DNA of 64,000 bases from Cellulomonas sp. Leaf395 (lineage in GTDB: Bacteria > Actinomycetota > Actinomycetes > Actinomycetales > Cellulomonadaceae), in assembly GCF_001424125.1 (NCBI RefSeq), contig NZ_LMQI01000005.1, positions 851,495 to 915,494 on the forward strand. Reading direction: 5' to 3'. The notes beneath the pieces are model-generated. The model made no database searches, was not told the DNA's origin, and worked only from the letters and a program-made list of their open reading frames with translations. Position 1 is the first letter of the stretch. Each line of letters begins with the position of its first letter. A program made the position numbers and the translations under genes. Positions 2,782 to 9,012 of the stretch are shown piece after piece.

Positions 2782-3729
2782 TCAGGCCGTGGCCGGGGTA
2801 CGGGCGATCCGCGGGTCGAGCGCCGGGTAGGCCAGGTCGACGACGAGGTTGACGACGACGAACACGAGCGCACCGACGACGACGACGCCCTGCACGACCG
2901 GGATGTCCTGCGTCCGGACCGCCTTCTCCACGAGCCCGCCGAACCCGGCCCGCGAGAAGACCGTCTCGACCACCACGGCACCGGCCAGCAGGTTGCCGAC
3001 GGCGATCCCGAGCAGGGTCAGTGCCGGCAGTGCCGCGTTGCGGGTGACGTGCCGCCACTGCACGCGGCCACGGCTGGCGCCCTTCGCGAGCGCCGTCTCC
3101 ACGTACGGCGCATCCCACGCGGTCCGCATCGACCGGGCGAGAACCTGCGCGATCACCGCGGACAGCGGGATCGCGAGCGTGAGGGCCGGCAGCACGAGGC
3201 TGGGAAAGCCCTGGTTGCCGACCGCCGGGAAGATCGGCAGACGGAACGAGAACGCCTGCAGCAGCAGCAGCCCGATCCAGAACGTCGGCATCGAGACGCC
3301 CAGCGGAGGCAGCGAGAGCAGCGCGCCGCGCAGCCGGGTGGACCGAGACCACGACGATGCCGCCGCGATCGCGCCGCCGAACAGCAGCGCGAGCCCCAGC
3401 GCGAAGCTGGTCAGCGCCAGCGTCTGCGGGAACGCGTCGGCGAGCAGCTCCGACACCGGCGCGCCCGAGGTCACGGAGACCCCCAGGTCACCGGTCACCG
3501 CCCGCCCGAGCATCACGAGGTACTGCTCGAGCGGCGGGCGGTCGAACCCGTAGCGTGCGCTCAGCTCGGCCACCTGCTCGGGGTCGACGGTGCCGCCCGG
3601 GTTGGCCGCGTCGAGAATGATGCTCACCGGGTCGCTGGGCAGCAGGTACAGCACCGCGAACGAGACGGTGAACGCCGCCCACAGGACCAGGACCGCTGCG
3701 CCGAGCCGGCGCAGGACGTAGCCGGTCAC
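2782..3729 (-). CDS. Dpp/Opp-type ABC transporter permease (DppB-like)
   Basis: Membrane permease of 315 residues with the DppB layout: an N-terminal membrane segment (about residues 9-30), the periplasmic-side stretch with GFDRPPLEQY, then a block of five segments. The cytoplasmic coupling loop reads VETALAKGASRGRVQWRHV. The start is GTG at 3729, whose GTGA overlaps the stop codon of the binding-protein gene. It partners with the DppC-like subunit immediately downstream. Confidence 0.92.
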   Translation of the reverse strand: MTGYVLRRLGAAVLVLWAAFTVSFAVLYLLPSDPVSIILDAANPGGTVDPEQVAELSARYGFDRPPLEQYLVMLGRAVTGDLGVSVTSGAPVSELLADAFPQTLALTSFALGLALLFGGAIAAASSWSRSTRLRGALLSLPPLGVSMPTFWIGLLLLQAFSFRLPIFPAVGNQGFPSLVLPALTLAIPLSAVIAQVLARSMRTAWDAPYVETALAKGASRGRVQWRHVTRNAALPALTLLGIAVGNLLAGAVVVETVFSRAGFGGLVEKAVRTQDIPVVQGVVVVGALVFVVVNLVVDLAYPALDPRIARTPATA

Positions 3730-5372
3730 TGGTCGGCACCGATCCAGGTGTCGTGGAACAGCAGCCGGGACGAGGCGTCGAACGCGAGGCCGTGCACGTC
3801 CGCACCGACACCGATCGACTGGGCGAGCTCGAACAGCGGGATCGCGAACCCGTCCGCGAGGATCGTCTCCTGTGCGGTGGCCAGCAGGTCCGCGCGCGCG
3901 GCGGCGTCACCCTCGGCGAGCTGGGCGTCCAGCAGCGGGTCCAGAACCGTGTCCGCCGGACGCTTGTTGATGTTGCGGAACTTGGACGAGAACTGCGTGC
4001 GCAGGATGTCGCCGTCGGCCCGCGTGGAGTTGTAGTAGTACGTGTCGTAGTCACCAGCAGCCACGGCTGCCTGCTGCTCGGCAGGAGTCTGCTGGCGCAC
4101 CTGGAGGTCGACACCAACGGCCTTGAGCTGCTGCTGCGTGAGCTCGAGGACGGCCTGGCTGCCCGTGAACAGCGGGGCGTAGACCACGTCGAAGGAGAGC
4201 TTCTCGCCGCCCTTCTCGCGGATGCCGTCAGCCCCGAGGGCCCAGCCGGCGTCGTCGAGCGCCTCCGCGGCGCCGTCCTGGTCGAAGACGAGCGCGTCGG
4301 ACAGGTCGGCGTAGCCGGGCGTCGTGCTGGCGAGCACGCTCGTCGCCGGCTCGAACGCCTCGCTCAGCACGGTGTCCACGAGCTCCTGGCGGTTGATCGC
4401 CACCTGGACGGCTGCCCGCACGTCGGGGTCGGCCAGCGGACCGGTGCTCACGTTCGGCTGGAGCACGAACACGACCCCCGGGTTGGTGCGCGTCAGCACC
4501 GAGCCCCCCGAACCCTCCACCTGCGGGACGTCCTGCGGGAGCACGTCGCCCACGGCGTCGAACTGGTCGGACGCCAGGCCACCGGACCGCACGCCCGACT
4601 CGGGCACGATCGTGAAGTCGATCTGGTCGAGGTACGCCTCGCCGGGGTTCTCGGAGACCTCCGACGGCCACACGTAGCCGTCGCGGCGCACGATCGTCGC
4701 CCCCTGGTCCTGCGTGTACTCCGCCAGCTCGAACGGTCCCGACCCCACGATCTCGCCCTGGAGCCGCGCCGCAGGGTCCGCCGTGGTCGTCGCGTCCGAC
4801 AGGATCGCGAGCGACACGGTCGAGGTGGCCTGCAGGAACTGCGCGTTCGGGGTGGCGAAGACGACCGTCACCGTGTGCTCGTCGTCAACCGTCGTCTCCT
4901 GGTAGCCCGCGAGGTAGGACGTCGCCAGCGCGGCGGTCGGCGCGAGCGCACCGACGAGAGAGTCGAAGTTGGCCTTGACGGTCGTCGCGGTCAGGGGCGT
5001 GCCGTCCGAGAACGTGACGTCGTCGCGCAGGTGGAACGTGAAGCGCGTCAGGTCGTCACTGACCTCCCAGCTCTGGGCGAGCCACGGCACGATCTCGCCG
5101 GTCTCGGGGTCCTGGTCGGTGAGCGAGTCGGCGAGCTGACGGGCGATGTAGATGCTGACGTTCGAGCCGACCTGCTGCGGGTCGACACCGCTGGGCGACG
5201 CGCCGAGCGCGAACCGCAGGGTGCCACCAGGCGTCGCGGCCGCAGCGTCGGCCGTCGTGGAAGCGGACGCGTCCGCAGCCGGGGTGGCGCCGGAGCTGCA
5301 CGCCGTCAGCAGGAGCGCGGGGACGACGAGCGTCGTCAGGAGGGCGGAACGGGCACGGGTCGAGCGGAGCAT
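3726..5372 (-). CDS. ABC transporter substrate-binding lipoprotein (SBP_bac_5 family)
   Basis: Extracellular solute-binding protein of 548 residues. It begins with a lipoprotein signal peptide ending in the lipobox LLTAC (Cys25), so it should be anchored to the membrane by Lgt-type acylation. The body matches family 5 (DppA/OppA-like): GGTLRFALGASPSGVDPQ near the N-terminus and DDLTRFTFHLRDDVTFSDGTPL around residues 110-130. A GAAGGA-like ribosome site precedes the ATG. It sits between two monooxygenase genes and the permeases in one operon. The ligand is unknown; linkage to flavin monooxygenases and a Cys-rich leader points to an organic sulfur source rather than peptides (inference). Confidence 0.9.
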   Translation of the reverse strand: MLRSTRARSALLTTLVVPALLLTACSSGATPAADASASTTADAAAATPGGTLRFALGASPSGVDPQQVGSNVSIYIARQLADSLTDQDPETGEIVPWLAQSWEVSDDLTRFTFHLRDDVTFSDGTPLTATTVKANFDSLVGALAPTAALATSYLAGYQETTVDDEHTVTVVFATPNAQFLQATSTVSLAILSDATTTADPAARLQGEIVGSGPFELAEYTQDQGATIVRRDGYVWPSEVSENPGEAYLDQIDFTIVPESGVRSGGLASDQFDAVGDVLPQDVPQVEGSGGSVLTRTNPGVVFVLQPNVSTGPLADPDVRAAVQVAINRQELVDTVLSEAFEPATSVLASTTPGYADLSDALVFDQDGAAEALDDAGWALGADGIREKGGEKLSFDVVYAPLFTGSQAVLELTQQQLKAVGVDLQVRQQTPAEQQAAVAAGDYDTYYYNSTRADGDILRTQFSSKFRNINKRPADTVLDPLLDAQLAEGDAAARADLLATAQETILADGFAIPLFELAQSIGVGADVHGLAFDASSRLLFHDTWIGADQ

Positions 5373-5411: not shown

Positions 5412-6827
5412 TCAGCCGACGAGTGCGCGGTCGGCGTGCGATCGGGTCGGAGTGGTGCCAGGGGCTGAGTTCGTCGCGCCAGGCGCCCTGCGGGTCAGCC
5501 CGAGGTGGTCGCGGAGCGTCGGCCCCGCGTACTCGGTGCGGAACGAGCCGCGTTCCTGCAGCAGGGGCACCACCTGGTCGAACACGTCGTCCAGGCCGGC
5601 GGGGGTCAGGTGCGGCACGAGGATGAAGCCGTCGGACGCGTCCTCCTGCACGTGCCGGTCGATGGCGTCCGCGACCTGCGTGGCGGTGCCGACGAACCCG
5701 CCGCGGGACGTCACCTCGATGACGAGCCGGCGGATCGACCAGCCGTTCGCGTCGGCCTGCTCGCGCCACGCGGCCGCGATGGTGCGCGGGTCCTTGACGT
5801 GCCGCACCCGGCCGCGCGTGATGTCGATGTTCTGGACGTCCGGGTCGATCCGCGGCAACGGTCCCTCGGGGTCGTGGTCCGTGAGGTCGCGGCCCCAGAC
5901 CTGCTCGAGGAACGCGATCGCCGTCGGGCCGGGCACCTGCTGGAGCCGGATCTCGCGGGACCGTTCGGCGGCCTCCTGCGCGGTCGCGCCGAGCACGACC
6001 GTGGTCGCGGGGAGGATGAGCAGCTCGCCCGGCGTGCGGCCGTGCGCAGCGAGGCGGCCCTTCACGTCGGCGAAGAACACCTGGCCGGCCTCGAACGTCG
6101 AGTGCGCCGAGAAGACGACGTCCGCGGTGGCCGCTGCGAAGTCGCGACCGTCCGCCGAGTCGCCCGCCTGGAACAGCACGGGGTGGCCCTGCGGACCGCG
6201 TGGGGTGGTGAACTCCCCACGGACCTGGAAGTGCGTGCCCTCGTGGCGGACCTCGCGCACCGACCCTGGTCGGACGAACTGCCCCGTGCGGGCGTGCGCG
6301 ATCACCGCGTCGTCGTCCCACGAGTCCCACAGCGCCCGAGCGACCTCGACCATCTCGGCCGCCCGCTCGTAGCGCTGCTCGTACGGCAGGAACCCGCCAC
6401 GGCGGAAGTTCTCCCCCGTGAACGCGTCCGAGCTGGTCACCAGGTTCCACGCGGCACGCCCGCCCGACAGGATGTCGAGCGTCGCGAACTGGCGGGCCAG
6501 CTCCCACGGCTCGTTGAACGTCGTGTTGATCGTGCCCGCCAGCCCGATCCGGTCCGTGACCGCCGCCAGCGCGGCGAGCACGGGCAGCGTGTCGGGACGG
6601 CCGACGACGTCGAGGTCATGGATCTGCCCCTTGTGCTCGCGCAGGCGCAGGCCCTCGGCGAGGAAGAAGAAGTCGAACCGGGCGGCCTCGGCGCGGCGGG
6701 CGAGGTGCTCGAACGACGCGAAGTCGATCTGGCTGCCGGAGCGGGGGTCGCTCCACACGGTGGTGTTGTTGACGCCGGGGAAGTGTGCGCCGAGGTGGAT
6801 CTGCTTGCGGGGCGTGGGGGTGGTCAT
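5412..6827 (-). CDS. LLM-class flavin-dependent monooxygenase (NtaA/SnaA/DszA family)
   Basis: A 471-residue luciferase-like (TIM-barrel) monooxygenase. Diagnostic stretches of the NtaA/SnaA/DszA subgroup are HFPGVNNTTVW, ARFDFFFLAEGL, LDILSGGRAAWNLVTSS and HPVLFQAGDSADGRDFAA. Members use reduced flavin from a separate reductase to oxidise substrates such as aminopolycarboxylates or dibenzothiophene sulfone. No flavin reductase is visible in this operon. I chose the ATG at 6827, 8 bp downstream of the preceding monooxygenase gene; the longer frame from 7094 is a shadow of that gene. Its role is probably cleavage of the compound imported by the adjacent ABC transporter, but the substrate cannot be named. 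Confidence 0.88.
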   Translation of the reverse strand: MTTPTPRKQIHLGAHFPGVNNTTVWSDPRSGSQIDFASFEHLARRAEAARFDFFFLAEGLRLREHKGQIHDLDVVGRPDTLPVLAALAAVTDRIGLAGTINTTFNEPWELARQFATLDILSGGRAAWNLVTSSDAFTGENFRRGGFLPYEQRYERAAEMVEVARALWDSWDDDAVIAHARTGQFVRPGSVREVRHEGTHFQVRGEFTTPRGPQGHPVLFQAGDSADGRDFAAATADVVFSAHSTFEAGQVFFADVKGRLAAHGRTPGELLILPATTVVLGATAQEAAERSREIRLQQVPGPTAIAFLEQVWGRDLTDHDPEGPLPRIDPDVQNIDITRGRVRHVKDPRTIAAAWREQADANGWSIRRLVIEVTSRGGFVGTATQVADAIDRHVQEDASDGFILVPHLTPAGLDDVFDQVVPLLQERGSFRTEYAGPTLRDHLGLTRRAPGATNSAPGTTPTRSHADRALVG

Positions 6828-6835
6828 CGCGGGGC

Positions 6836-7990
6836 TCAGGCGATCGCGGCGTAGCGGTTGACCGGGTGGGTGAGGCCCAGCTGGTCGCGCAGCGTCGGGC
6901 CGTTGTAATGCTCCCGGAACGCCCGTGCGGTGCGCAGCATCGGCACGACGCCGTCGACGAGGGCGTCGAGGTCGGTGTGCAGCGAGGAGGGCCGGACGAC
7001 GAACCCGTCCACGGCGCCGATCTCCCACCAGTGCAGGAACGTGTCGGTCAGCTCGCGGGCCGTCCCGACGTGCGTCATGGAGTCGGTGTCCCACCGGACG
7101 CCCTCGAGCTCGGTGAGCAGGTCCAGCCGAGCGCGCGCGCTGTCCTGGTCGGGCCCCGTCACGACGAACGCGTCGACGAGGACCCGCAGGTCACCGGGCT
7201 CGCGACCCGCCGCGGCGGCGGCGGCCCGCAGCCGCAGCCGCAGGTCGAGGGCCTCGTCGCGGCTGGTGGCGCTGATCCGGACGACGTCGGCGTGCCGGGC
7301 GGCGAGGCCGAACGACTCGTCCGAGCCGACCCGCACCACGATCGGCGGCTGACCCTGCGGGGGCCGCGGGGTGATCGACGGGCCCTTGACCGCGAAGTGG
7401 ACGCCGTCGTGCTCGACGTAGTGCAGCTTGGCGCGGTCGACGTACCGGTGCGTCGCCTCGTCGCGGATCTCGGCGTCGTCCTCCCAGCTGTCCCACAGCG
7501 CCGAGACGACCTCGACGGCCTCCTCGGCCTCGGCCACGGCGGCAGCCTCGGACAGTGCCGGCCCGCGGCCGAAGTGGGTGGCGTCCTGGTCGTCGGCGGA
7601 CCACCCGAGCTGCCAACCGGCCCGGCCGCCGCTGACGTGGTCGATCGTCGCGATCGCCTTGGACACGTGGAACGGCTCGGTGTGCGTCGTCGCGACCGTC
7701 GGCACCAGACCGATGCCCCGGGACCGCGGCGCCAGCCGCGCGGCGACGAGTGCAGCATCGAGGCGACCCCGCAGCGTCGTGAAGCGGGAGGGCTGCAACG
7801 AGAAGGAGTCGTCGATCACGACGAGGTCGAGCGTGCCGCGCTGGGCAGTGTCGACCAGGTGCTGGAGCCGCTCGGCGTCGAAGAGGCGCTGGGCCTGGGA
7901 ACCGTGCGTGCGCCAGGCGGCGGGGTGGGCGCCGGCGTCGCTGAGGTCGACGCCGAGGTGCAGGGGCAGGGGGGAGGCAGGTCGTGCCAT
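6836..7990 (-). CDS. LLM-class flavin-dependent oxidoreductase
   Basis: Second luciferase-like oxidoreductase of the operon, about 384 residues from the chosen ATG at 7990. Recognisable motifs are LVVIDDSFSLQ, IATIDHVSGGRAGWQLGWS and PIVVRVGSDESFGLAARHADVVRIS. It belongs to the same superfamily as the downstream enzyme but is clearly divergent from it. An alternative start at 8041 would add 17 residues; I prefer 7990 because ACGGACC upstream resembles the AAGGACC site of the binding-protein gene. It is the first large gene after the Cys-Cys leader peptide. Paired LLM enzymes next to a transporter are common in actinobacterial sulfur-source operons. Confidence 0.87.
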   Translation of the reverse strand: MARPASPLPLHLGVDLSDAGAHPAAWRTHGSQAQRLFDAERLQHLVDTAQRGTLDLVVIDDSFSLQPSRFTTLRGRLDAALVAARLAPRSRGIGLVPTVATTHTEPFHVSKAIATIDHVSGGRAGWQLGWSADDQDATHFGRGPALSEAAAVAEAEEAVEVVSALWDSWEDDAEIRDEATHRYVDRAKLHYVEHDGVHFAVKGPSITPRPPQGQPPIVVRVGSDESFGLAARHADVVRISATSRDEALDLRLRLRAAAAAAGREPGDLRVLVDAFVVTGPDQDSARARLDLLTELEGVRWDTDSMTHVGTARELTDTFLHWWEIGAVDGFVVRPSSLHTDLDALVDGVVPMLRTARAFREHYNGPTLRDQLGLTHPVNRYAAIA

Positions 7991-8068
7991 GGCAGGGGTC
8001 CGTTCATGAGTCGCGGAGGCGGGCGCACTGGGCGCGGCCATCGGTGCGTGGGAGGGGCGAGCGCGCGA

Positions 8069-8083
8069 GACGGCCGGGCCGTC
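8069..8083 (-). promoter_or_regulatory. Possible attenuator hairpin between leader peptide and first operon gene
   Basis: A 15-base near-palindrome, GACGGCCCGGCCGTC when read on the minus strand, giving a stem of six G-C-rich pairs around a CCG loop. It lies 51 bases after the leader stop codon and 78 bases before the first monooxygenase gene. No U-tract follows, so a classical intrinsic terminator is not obvious. It could be part of an attenuator or a ribosome-site sequestering structure. Confidence 0.35.
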
Positions 8084-8134
8084 GATCGGGTGGCTCGTCG
8101 GGGGCCGGTCAGGCGGGGCAGACCGGGCAGAGAG

Positions 8135-8239
8135 TCAGCGACAACAGGTGCTGAGCGCGCCGGACCCGGCGCCGGGACAGCACGAGGACAGGCGCGAGAG
8201 GCCGCCGGGAACCGCAGCGGGCTGACCGTCCGTGCTCAT
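8135..8239 (-). CDS. Leader peptide with two Cys-Cys pairs (putative cysteine attenuator)
   Basis: A 34-codon reading frame with ATG at 8239 and a good ribosome site (GAAGGGA, 6 nt before the ATG). The peptide has Cys-Cys at residues 20-21 (LSSCCPG) and again at 32-33, two residues from the end (STCCR, stop). The DNA between the pairs contains a perfect 12-bp palindrome, CCCGGCGCCGGG (8165-8176), so ribosome stalling at the first pair would lie against a hairpin. It lies 144 bp before the monooxygenase/ABC operon. Short Cys-rich leader peptides that sense cysteine supply are known upstream of sulfur genes in mycobacteria and other actinobacteria. An in-frame ATG at 8386, close to the predicted transcript start, would lengthen the product to 83 residues. 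Confidence 0.65.
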   Translation of the reverse strand: MSTDGQPAAVPGGLSRLSSCCPGAGSGALSTCCR

Positions 8240-8386
8240 CGTGCGTCCCTTCGTGCCCGCCGAGCGGGCGCTGCGTCGTTGTCGGGCACGAGCGGGGCGC
8301 TCGTGCAGGACCAGGTCGTCACCCGGGGCACCCCACACGCAGGAGGGTTGCCACCCAGCAAGCCGGGGCTCGTTGCTGGAATTCAT

Positions 8387-8399
8387 GACCTAACAGGTC
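8387..8399. promoter_or_regulatory. Palindromic operator candidate at transcription start
   Basis: GACCT-GTT-AGGTC, a perfect 5-bp inverted repeat with a 3-bp centre, placed directly downstream of the minus-strand -10 hexamer, where a repressor would block initiation. The cognate regulator is not in the window. Confidence 0.4.
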
Positions 8400-8402
8400 G
8401 GG

Positions 8403-8431
8403 AAAGTAGAGAAAGTTCGGTGCCGAGTCAA
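8403..8431 (-). promoter_or_regulatory. Sigma-70-type promoter of the leader/monooxygenase operon
   Basis: On the minus strand, TTGACT (8431-8426) is followed after exactly 17 bases by TACTTT (8408-8403). This is one of the best -35/-10 pairs in the window. The predicted start at about 8396 would give a 5-prime region of about 157 nt before the Cys-Cys leader peptide. Confidence 0.65.
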
Positions 8432-8496
8432 TACTGGCGCCGAAAAGTCCAGATGGTGGGACCGGTCGTCCCGTCAGGTGGTGGAAGAATCGGCGC

Positions 8497-9012
8497 GTGG
8501 CCATCACGATCTCCCCCGACGAGCCCACCGCACCCGACGTGCTGACCCTGCTCGGCGAGCACCTCACCGACATGTACGCGACGTCGCCCGCCGAGTCGGT
8601 GCATGCGCTCGACCCCTCCGCGCTCGCGGCACCGGGCATCAGGTTCTGGACCGCCCGGGACAGCAGCGGCGCGCTGCTCGGGTGCGCGGCGCTCAAGGAG
8701 CTCGGACCGACGGACAGCGAGCTGACGTCGATGCGGACCACGACCGCGGCCCGCGGGCAGGGTGTGGGCGCCGCGGTGCTGGCGCACGTGCTCGCCGCCG
8801 CGGCAGGCCGGGGCGTCCGGACGGTGCACCTGGAGACCGGCACGCAGGACTACTTCGCGCCCGCCCGACGCCTGTACGAGCGCGCCGGGTTCGTCCCGTG
8901 CCCGCCCTTCGCCGACTACGTCCTCGACCCCCACAGCGTCTTCTACCGGCTGTCGCTCACCGCGCCAGACGTGCCCGCCACCGGTCCCACGGCGGCGCGA
9001 CCCGCCAGTTGA
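8497..9012 (+). CDS. GNAT family N-acetyltransferase (YsnE-like)
   Basis: A 171-residue acetyltransferase with the acetyl-CoA loop RGQGVGAAVL (residues 86-95). The stretch LGCAALKELGPTDSELTSMRT resembles the YsnE/PhnO-type group. Its substrate is unknown. The start is GTG at 8497, preceded by AAGAAT and then exactly six bases, so the transcript is probably leaderless. The gene faces away from the sulfur operon and its last 56 bases overlap the 3-prime end of the glycosyltransferase gene on the other strand. Confidence 0.88.
   Translation: MAITISPDEPTAPDVLTLLGEHLTDMYATSPAESVHALDPSALAAPGIRFWTARDSSGALLGCAALKELGPTDSELTSMRTTTAARGQGVGAAVLAHVLAAAAGRGVRTVHLETGTQDYFAPARRLYERAGFVPCPPFADYVLDPHSVFYRLSLTAPDVPATGPTAARPAS

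Follow-up and report, generated by a model that had tools for sequence, protein, structure and literature searches.

A SAM-IV riboswitch followed by a cysteine-codon leader ORF ahead of a likely sulfur-scavenging operon in Cellulomonas

To which signals would a short reading frame with two Cys-Cys pairs respond when it stands ahead of a monooxygenase and importer operon in Cellulomonas sp. Leaf395? An earlier note, made from the sequence alone, had taken this 34-codon frame for a ribosome-stalling device tuned to Cys-tRNA supply. The locus was analyzed within a window of 64,000 nucleotides (the whole stretch, positions 851,495-915,494 of contig NZ_LMQI01000005.1) and compared with related loci of Cellulomonas, nearby genera and Streptomyces. 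All features described below lie on the minus strand of the window.

Anatomy of the Leaf395 locus

The leader ORF (8239-8135) encodes MSTDGQPAAVPGGLSRLSSCCPGAGSGALSTCCR-stop, that is 34 codons plus stop with four Cys codons arranged as Cys-Cys pairs at codons 20-21 (TGC TGT, 8177-8182) and 32-33 (TGT TGT, 8141-8146), the second pair being followed by CGC TGA. Its Shine-Dalgarno (SD) sequence AAGGGA (8246-8251) is separated from the ATG by six bases and is invariant in eight aligned orthologues. Frame, Cys pairs and ribosome site are exactly as the earlier note had described them, and the promoter it had named, TTGACT-17-TACTTT, is present at 8431-8403. A strict consensus promoter scan left this predicted promoter unreported since it falls below the consensus of that scan; TTGAC and TACTTT recur at the equivalent position in close relatives. 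The leader starts about 160 nt downstream of it. With the predicted promoter as reference, the SD-led Leaf395 ORF does not belong with the mycobacterial leaderless ORFs, in which translation begins at the transcript 5' end.

Between the promoter and the leader ORF we found an element absent from the earlier note, a SAM-IV riboswitch aptamer (8270-8390). It scored 80.1 bits against the gathering cut-off of 38 and aligned with the full covariance model (1-116), which places it in Rfam family RF00634, and it was the sole Rfam match above cut-off in the window. The promoter position suggests a transcript start just ahead of the aptamer, which would therefore lie near the transcript 5' end. An Rfam search of the Leaf395 genome recovered this copy again and gave two SAM-IV copies in all; the second sits ahead of a class-V aminotransferase gene. 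The top-scoring RF00634 copies of the genus mostly lie directly ahead of a class-V aminotransferase gene, whereas the Leaf395 copy described here lies ahead of the leader.

The interval between the aptamer and the ribosome site contains the hairpin GCCCGC-TCG-GCGGGC (8255-8269), a candidate expression platform. Of the 23 SAM-IV/leader loci folded, 21 gave a more stable structure in this interval than their shuffles did on average; the stem sequences differ among loci and individual z-scores mostly reach just -1 to -2. The leader begins a median of 30 nt past the aptamer (n=31, range 13-62). At SAM-IV loci lacking a leader the gene itself begins a median of 35.5 nt past the aptamer (n=62 of 81), with a wide spread, 19 of the 62 starts being only 9-24 nt away. 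Since its start distance is near that of the gene starts at leaderless loci, the leader seems to take the place of the regulated gene.

The first gene of the operon (6836-7990) encodes an NtaA/DmoA-type FMN-dependent luciferase-like monooxygenase (PF00296; TIGR03860 272.5 bits, just under the cut-off of 279.7), whose closest named relatives are from Cellulomonas terrae (95% identity) and other Cellulomonas. It is followed by a second luciferase-like monooxygenase (5412-6824, start codon inferred; PF00296 and TIGR03860, the latter above cut-off for the longer ORF 5412-7094), a family-5 solute-binding lipoprotein (3726-5372; PF00496), two ABC permeases (2782-3729 and 1864-2763; PF00528) and a fused two-domain ABC ATPase (191-1870, the coordinates of the scanned frame; PF00005 in two stretches). 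The two monooxygenases and the parts of a Dpp-type importer that had been read from the sequence are present; DUF1684, also listed at that time, did not appear in the Pfam results for the seven proteins scanned. Judged by these protein families, the operon is likely one for organosulfur use, probably in sulfur scavenging. The sequence GAACGGA (7999-8005) stands ahead of the start codon of the first gene and occurs in many leader loci, as well as in a locus with neither leader nor SAM-IV (L162).

The leader stop and the first gene are separated by a C-rich spacer (7991-8134), a candidate Rho target with C skew and without a terminator-like site. Further TGA triplets in other frames were seen no more than about 40 nt past the leader stop in Leaf395 (8109-8111), in L056 and in several other loci; they could close other frames ahead of the spacer.

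Recurrence and codon use of the leader

SAM-IV was detected in 57 of the 60 Cellulomonas genomes searched. From 135 matches, 109 were examined, the 26 omitted being all top-scoring (98 bits or more), and the scan rule asked for a short ORF preceded by an SD sequence, starting 8-70 nt past the aptamer and having two or more Cys among its last 14 codons. A match was obtained at 28 of the 109 loci, compared with a mean of 0.34 (maximum 3) in 100 dinucleotide shuffles; control offsets of 400-2000 gave no sense matches (73-105 loci each) and 0-2 antisense matches among 105. Two of the 28 (L018 and L083) look spurious and two others (L051 and L064) are on contigs that stop short of a gene. The remaining matches stand ahead of monooxygenases of one cluster or look-alikes, except L095, where a solute-binding protein comes first. 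No Cys-leader match was obtained among the examined SAM-IV copies of the class-V aminotransferase type (cluster c1, of which L003 was tested), nor behind SAM-IV at 88 loci taken from the best-scoring matches in the remaining genera of the order, 82 of which matched the simple SAM-IV pattern. As the loci are related, these counts are not independent, and Fisher values on codon use are descriptive only. By the comparative evidence, the 34-codon ORF is a real regulatory leader.

SAM-IV copies of the class-V aminotransferase type (cluster c1, including L003) were found across much of the genus. Back-to-back SAM-IV pairs within one intergenic region, between divergent genes, were seen at L057/L060, L059/L061 and L043/L080, with the Cys leader on one side only. 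Within the Leaf395 genome the pattern TGYTGYCGNTGA (CCR-stop) occurred at 39 places against 19 for a backward control, and none of the 30 places inspected as loci was an SD-led short ORF, the Leaf395 leader site being outside these 30.

To see how the two elements are distributed, we compared 28 monooxygenase orthologue loci (L140-L166 and L173) out of a set of 80, all 28 being from Cellulomonas or neighbouring genera. SAM-IV was accompanied by a Cys leader in 18 of them and by a one-Cys leader in one (L157). The leader occurred alone in eight, namely in Oerskovia (L149, L153, L154 and L164), Sanguibacter (L151 and L152), Antribacter (L161) and C. rhizosphaerae (L173), and one locus (L162) had neither element. 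Three leaders (L144, L151 and L157) do not satisfy the scan rule and were identified by reading the sequence directly. In seven of the eight leader-only loci, an Rfam search with permissive settings revealed no sense-strand SAM-IV, the one match in L173 being on the opposite strand; the eighth (L164) had no SAM-IV at the gathering cut-off. In Antribacter the leader lies directly 3' of promoter-like sequence. Among the remaining 52 loci (Streptomyces and others), 28 had a frame with the HIDL..C motif, which marks an already known leader family, within 700 nt upstream, and five had a SAM-IV-like pattern (L168, L186, L197, L203 and L211). Rfam accepted SAM-IV in L168 and L203 and not in L211; the Rhodococcus loci L186 and L197 showed no convincing leader behind the pattern.

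For an analysis of the peptides, 24 of the 28 scan matches (without L018, L083, L051 and L064) were combined with 16 GTDB loci and with L144, L151 and L157, added by hand. Among these 43 leaders the peptide bodies vary strongly, and the tail and its position stay. The tail is exactly TGT-CGC-TGA in 21 leaders and TGT-CGY-CGC-TGA in eight, and in 40 of the 43 at least one of the three final sense codons is Cys. Two separate Cys-Cys pairs, as in Leaf395, are present in 13 of the 43 (the C. terrae group, C. cellasea, Oerskovia and Antribacter), the others having one Cys pair or spaced Cys codons. In six close orthologues the pairwise changes at the three codon positions were 57, 13 and 67, and nonsynonymous codon differences exceeded synonymous ones (72 vs 50), the pattern to be expected of a leader in which only the tail matters. 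By comparison the ORF has the sequence features of a ribosome-mediated cysteine leader, an SD-led frame with Cys codons near the stop and a variable body.

The Cys codons of the 43 leaders are predominantly UGU (119, against 31 UGC), and those of the downstream genes are predominantly UGC (360, against 46 UGU). At the second- and third-last sense codons the preference was almost complete (53 UGU, 1 UGC), and at the last sense codon the numbers were 5 UGU and 4 UGC. In 38 leaders of known families from other actinobacteria, TGT and TGC were found 59 and 61 times, and in the long ORFs of the same loci 35 and 231 times. A rule based on UGU near the stop could help to find cysteine leaders in GC-rich genomes. 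The prediction of a cysteine-codon leader ahead of an organosulfur-type operon, for which conservation of the Cys codons in relatives had been proposed as a check, has held: they are retained across a number of genera, whether or not the riboswitch is present. These comparisons leave the idea of a cysteine sensor well supported but incomplete.

A two-input reading and its alternatives

The earlier note had also ascribed roles to a palindrome between the Cys pairs and to a GC hairpin after the stop. Both are present in the Leaf395 sequence, as the 12-bp palindrome CCCGGCGCCGGG and as CCGGTC/GACCGG 3' of the leader stop. Among the eight aligned orthologues, the palindrome is complete only in Leaf395 (a 10-bp core is found in five) and the post-stop hairpin requires a nine-base stretch unique to Leaf395; both were rejected as parts of a device because they are not conserved.

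A search of positions 7850-8550 revealed no terminator-like site, so the locus does not have the form of a classical terminator-attenuator, and Rho or translation attenuation would be possible outputs. The 120 nt after the leader stop contain on average 51% C and 30% G, with C in excess of G in all 43 leaders, and in all 24 loci compared the C skew is greater here than upstream of the aptamer. Ten leaderless SAM-IV loci with long UTRs are C-skewed as well, mostly less so (-0.04 to 0.28), which makes the hint at Rho a weak one. We slightly favour Rho over translation attenuation as the output.

The order of promoter, aptamer, leader, C-rich spacer and operon suggests gating in series, and we consider it probable that the locus carries a serial two-input RNA leader, in which SAM-IV gates initiation on the leader and a shortage of Cys-tRNA stalls ribosomes and spares the operon termination. 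The transcript would open with the SAM-IV aptamer, and at low SAM ribosomes would initiate on the leader ORF. With ample Cys-tRNA the ribosome would reach the UGA and depart, and the naked C-rich spacer would permit termination, perhaps by Rho. With Cys-tRNA short, it would stall on UGU near the stop, and polymerase would reach the monooxygenase and importer genes. At high SAM the leader would not be translated and the operon would be off, and expression would be switched on only with both compounds scarce. The anatomy (aptamer, ORF, order, spacing, conservation and UGU tail) is observed directly; SAM binding, leader translation, stalling, Rho action and AND logic are what we infer from it. 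Several of the observations weigh against this model: the pairing tests between its parts that came out negative, the spread of gene starts at leaderless SAM-IV loci, the lack of a UGU preference at the very last sense codon, the excess of nonsynonymous differences, and the SAM-IV copies of Cellulomonas, of other genera of the order and of Streptomyces that have no leader, or a leader devoid of Cys.

The same anatomy could arise from two independent elements, SAM-IV affecting either transcription or the stability of the mRNA, and the leader being a stand-alone cysteine attenuator, so that the inputs add without gating in series. This would account for the leaders without SAM-IV in Oerskovia, Sanguibacter, Antribacter and C. 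rhizosphaerae and for SAM-IV without a leader ahead of some monooxygenase genes (L055, L089, L096 and L098). It also agrees with the lack of a pairing signal between aptamer, leader and spacer parts: permuted partners were as good as cognate ones in 3367 of 5000 permutations for aptamer end with leader tail (20 loci) and in 1739 of 5000 for leader tail with spacer. On the other hand, the leader starts at a distance typical of many gene starts at leaderless SAM-IV loci, and the Leaf395 aptamer is followed by no terminator-like site. We regard independence as possible, with clearly less than an even prospect of being right. Translational attenuation, in which the ribosome site of the gene is hidden in RNA structure and exposed by a stalled leader ribosome, has a precedent in the cysteine biosynthetic genes of M. 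smegmatis, cited as such in a 2026 paper (PMC13236596). RNAalifold of the eight orthologues pairs an invariant post-stop GCCTG with an invariant CCATGGC at the gene start, which proves nothing because the pairs do not vary. Overall, the alignment gave 65 pairs, six of which stayed paired through changes in both partners; the covariation term was unfavourable (+0.72). Cognate post-stop regions and gene ribosome sites pair no better than mismatched ones (4549 of 5000 permutations as good, n=17 loci) and the distance from leader to gene varies widely, which makes attenuation at the level of translation unlikely, though less so than the readings that follow.

RNAalifold also pairs the aptamer end CGACGCAG with the tail CUGUUGUCG in the clade of Leaf395, as it should if the UGU-rich tail were a switching strand and leader translation competed with SAM binding. 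The same tail is also found in leaders without SAM-IV, and for this reason aptamer pairing was rejected as the cause of the UGU choice; the 20 loci with no cognate preference point the same way, and a switching strand appears very improbable. We give still less credence to a functional small Cys-rich protein or modified peptide. Codon position 2 does change least in the six close orthologues, as a selected protein would have it, but nonsynonymous differences outnumber synonymous ones, the bodies differ between lineages while tail and position are kept, and no modification enzyme was found among the operon genes scanned. Finally, GC-rich DNA abounds in short ORFs, and one could occur here by chance; with 28 matches in 109 loci against 0.34 in shuffles, and recurrence across genera, this explanation retains hardly any probability. 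The serial two-input leader is the reading retained in what follows.

Comparison with Streptomyces and other known systems

A parallel arrangement was found in Streptomyces. At two loci, SAM-IV is followed by a leader of the NF042934 type ahead of an orthologous monooxygenase (L168, 34.9 bits, and L203, 36.4 bits; cut-off 27 bits). From a sample of 81 Streptomyces genomes, the 30 top-scoring and the 29 weakest SAM-IV copies were examined. None of the 30 had a leader, and 24 of the 29 were followed by an NF042934-like leader with a DL motif (21 by a first pattern and three more, L396-L398, by a wider one), the other five having none. Four of six such peptides tested exceeded the NF042934 cut-off. 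Two unlike leader peptides thus follow one riboswitch class, and because the type found in Streptomyces is a different and known one, the pairing of SAM-IV with a leader probably arose more than once. Three of these 24 Streptomyces leaders behind SAM-IV (L410, L413 and L415) end in HIDLLRVSSAY and have no Cys codons; the L410 peptide is above the NF042934 cut-off.

The wider proposition is that a riboswitch-regulated leader ORF forms a two-nutrient AND gate, that this module has at least two origins within Actinomycetota and that in actinobacterial cysteine leaders the rare UGU near the stop was selected as the sensing codon. Taken jointly, we hold it tentatively, as a claim that falls somewhat short of an even prospect. 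Work on riboswitches and on leader-peptide attenuators usually proceeds separately, and natural versions with both, either or neither element offer a direct test of one RNA integrating two linked metabolites.

The models NF042933 and NF042936 (Ms5788A and Ms4527A Cys-rich leader peptides) are presumably linked to the mycobacterial polycysteine short ORFs. The Leaf395 peptide matched neither of them, nor NF042934, and neither NF042933 nor NF042934 was found in the Leaf395 genome. NF042934 (cis_reg_atten) shares the position of the Leaf395 leader, including that behind SAM-IV in Streptomyces, but its motif, HIDL-RV-ALC, is unlike the Leaf395 peptide. The results point to a type of cysteine leader matched by none of the curated NCBIfam models. 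The mycobacterial polycysteine short ORFs are leaderless and, as Canestrari et al. 2020 are said to have reported, act as cysteine-responsive attenuators; they resemble the Leaf395 ORF in being short and carrying Cys codons, whereas the latter is SD-led and lies behind a riboswitch.

A search of the open PubMed Central literature turned up no paper that pairs SAM-IV with a cysteine leader, and the two-sensor arrangement of SAM-IV followed by a cysteine leader is a new element. Cysteine leader ORFs in which Cys codons form runs close to the stop, without a conserved terminator and with a suggested role of Rho, were described by Seliverstov et al. 2005 (PMC1262725) for cys operons of Mycobacterium and Propionibacterium and for cbs of Bifidobacterium; the text available from that paper mentions no riboswitch, whereas Leaf395 has SAM-IV. 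The Rhodobacterales cysS leader uORFC-8-2 has tandem Cys codons in its uORF, with UGC dominating, according to the accessible part of PMC8632094. It has a terminator with a U run, and that part of the article mentions no riboswitch, in contrast to Leaf395 with SAM-IV and no terminator-like site. In S. lividans, PMC8079986 places SAM-IV ahead of a cysteine desulfurase and gives separately a leader, MSTTSDRTPATEATTTPGARCMCRRMCAF, named methionine-dependent. This metL leader, for which none of the NCBIfam leader models gave a match, carries CMCRRMC close to its end and may sense cysteine rather than methionine.

Besides the stand-alone cysteine leaders, the nearest layout is that of the B12 riboswitches of M. 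tuberculosis, which, in the sections of Kipkorir et al. 2024 (PMC11260477) at our disposal, are accompanied by translated uORFs that modulate the downstream gene. The same sections call the effect of riboswitch-associated uORFs unaddressed until then. The ligand is a different one and the uORFs are not described in those sections as amino-acid sensors, but the combination of riboswitch and uORF is shared with Leaf395.
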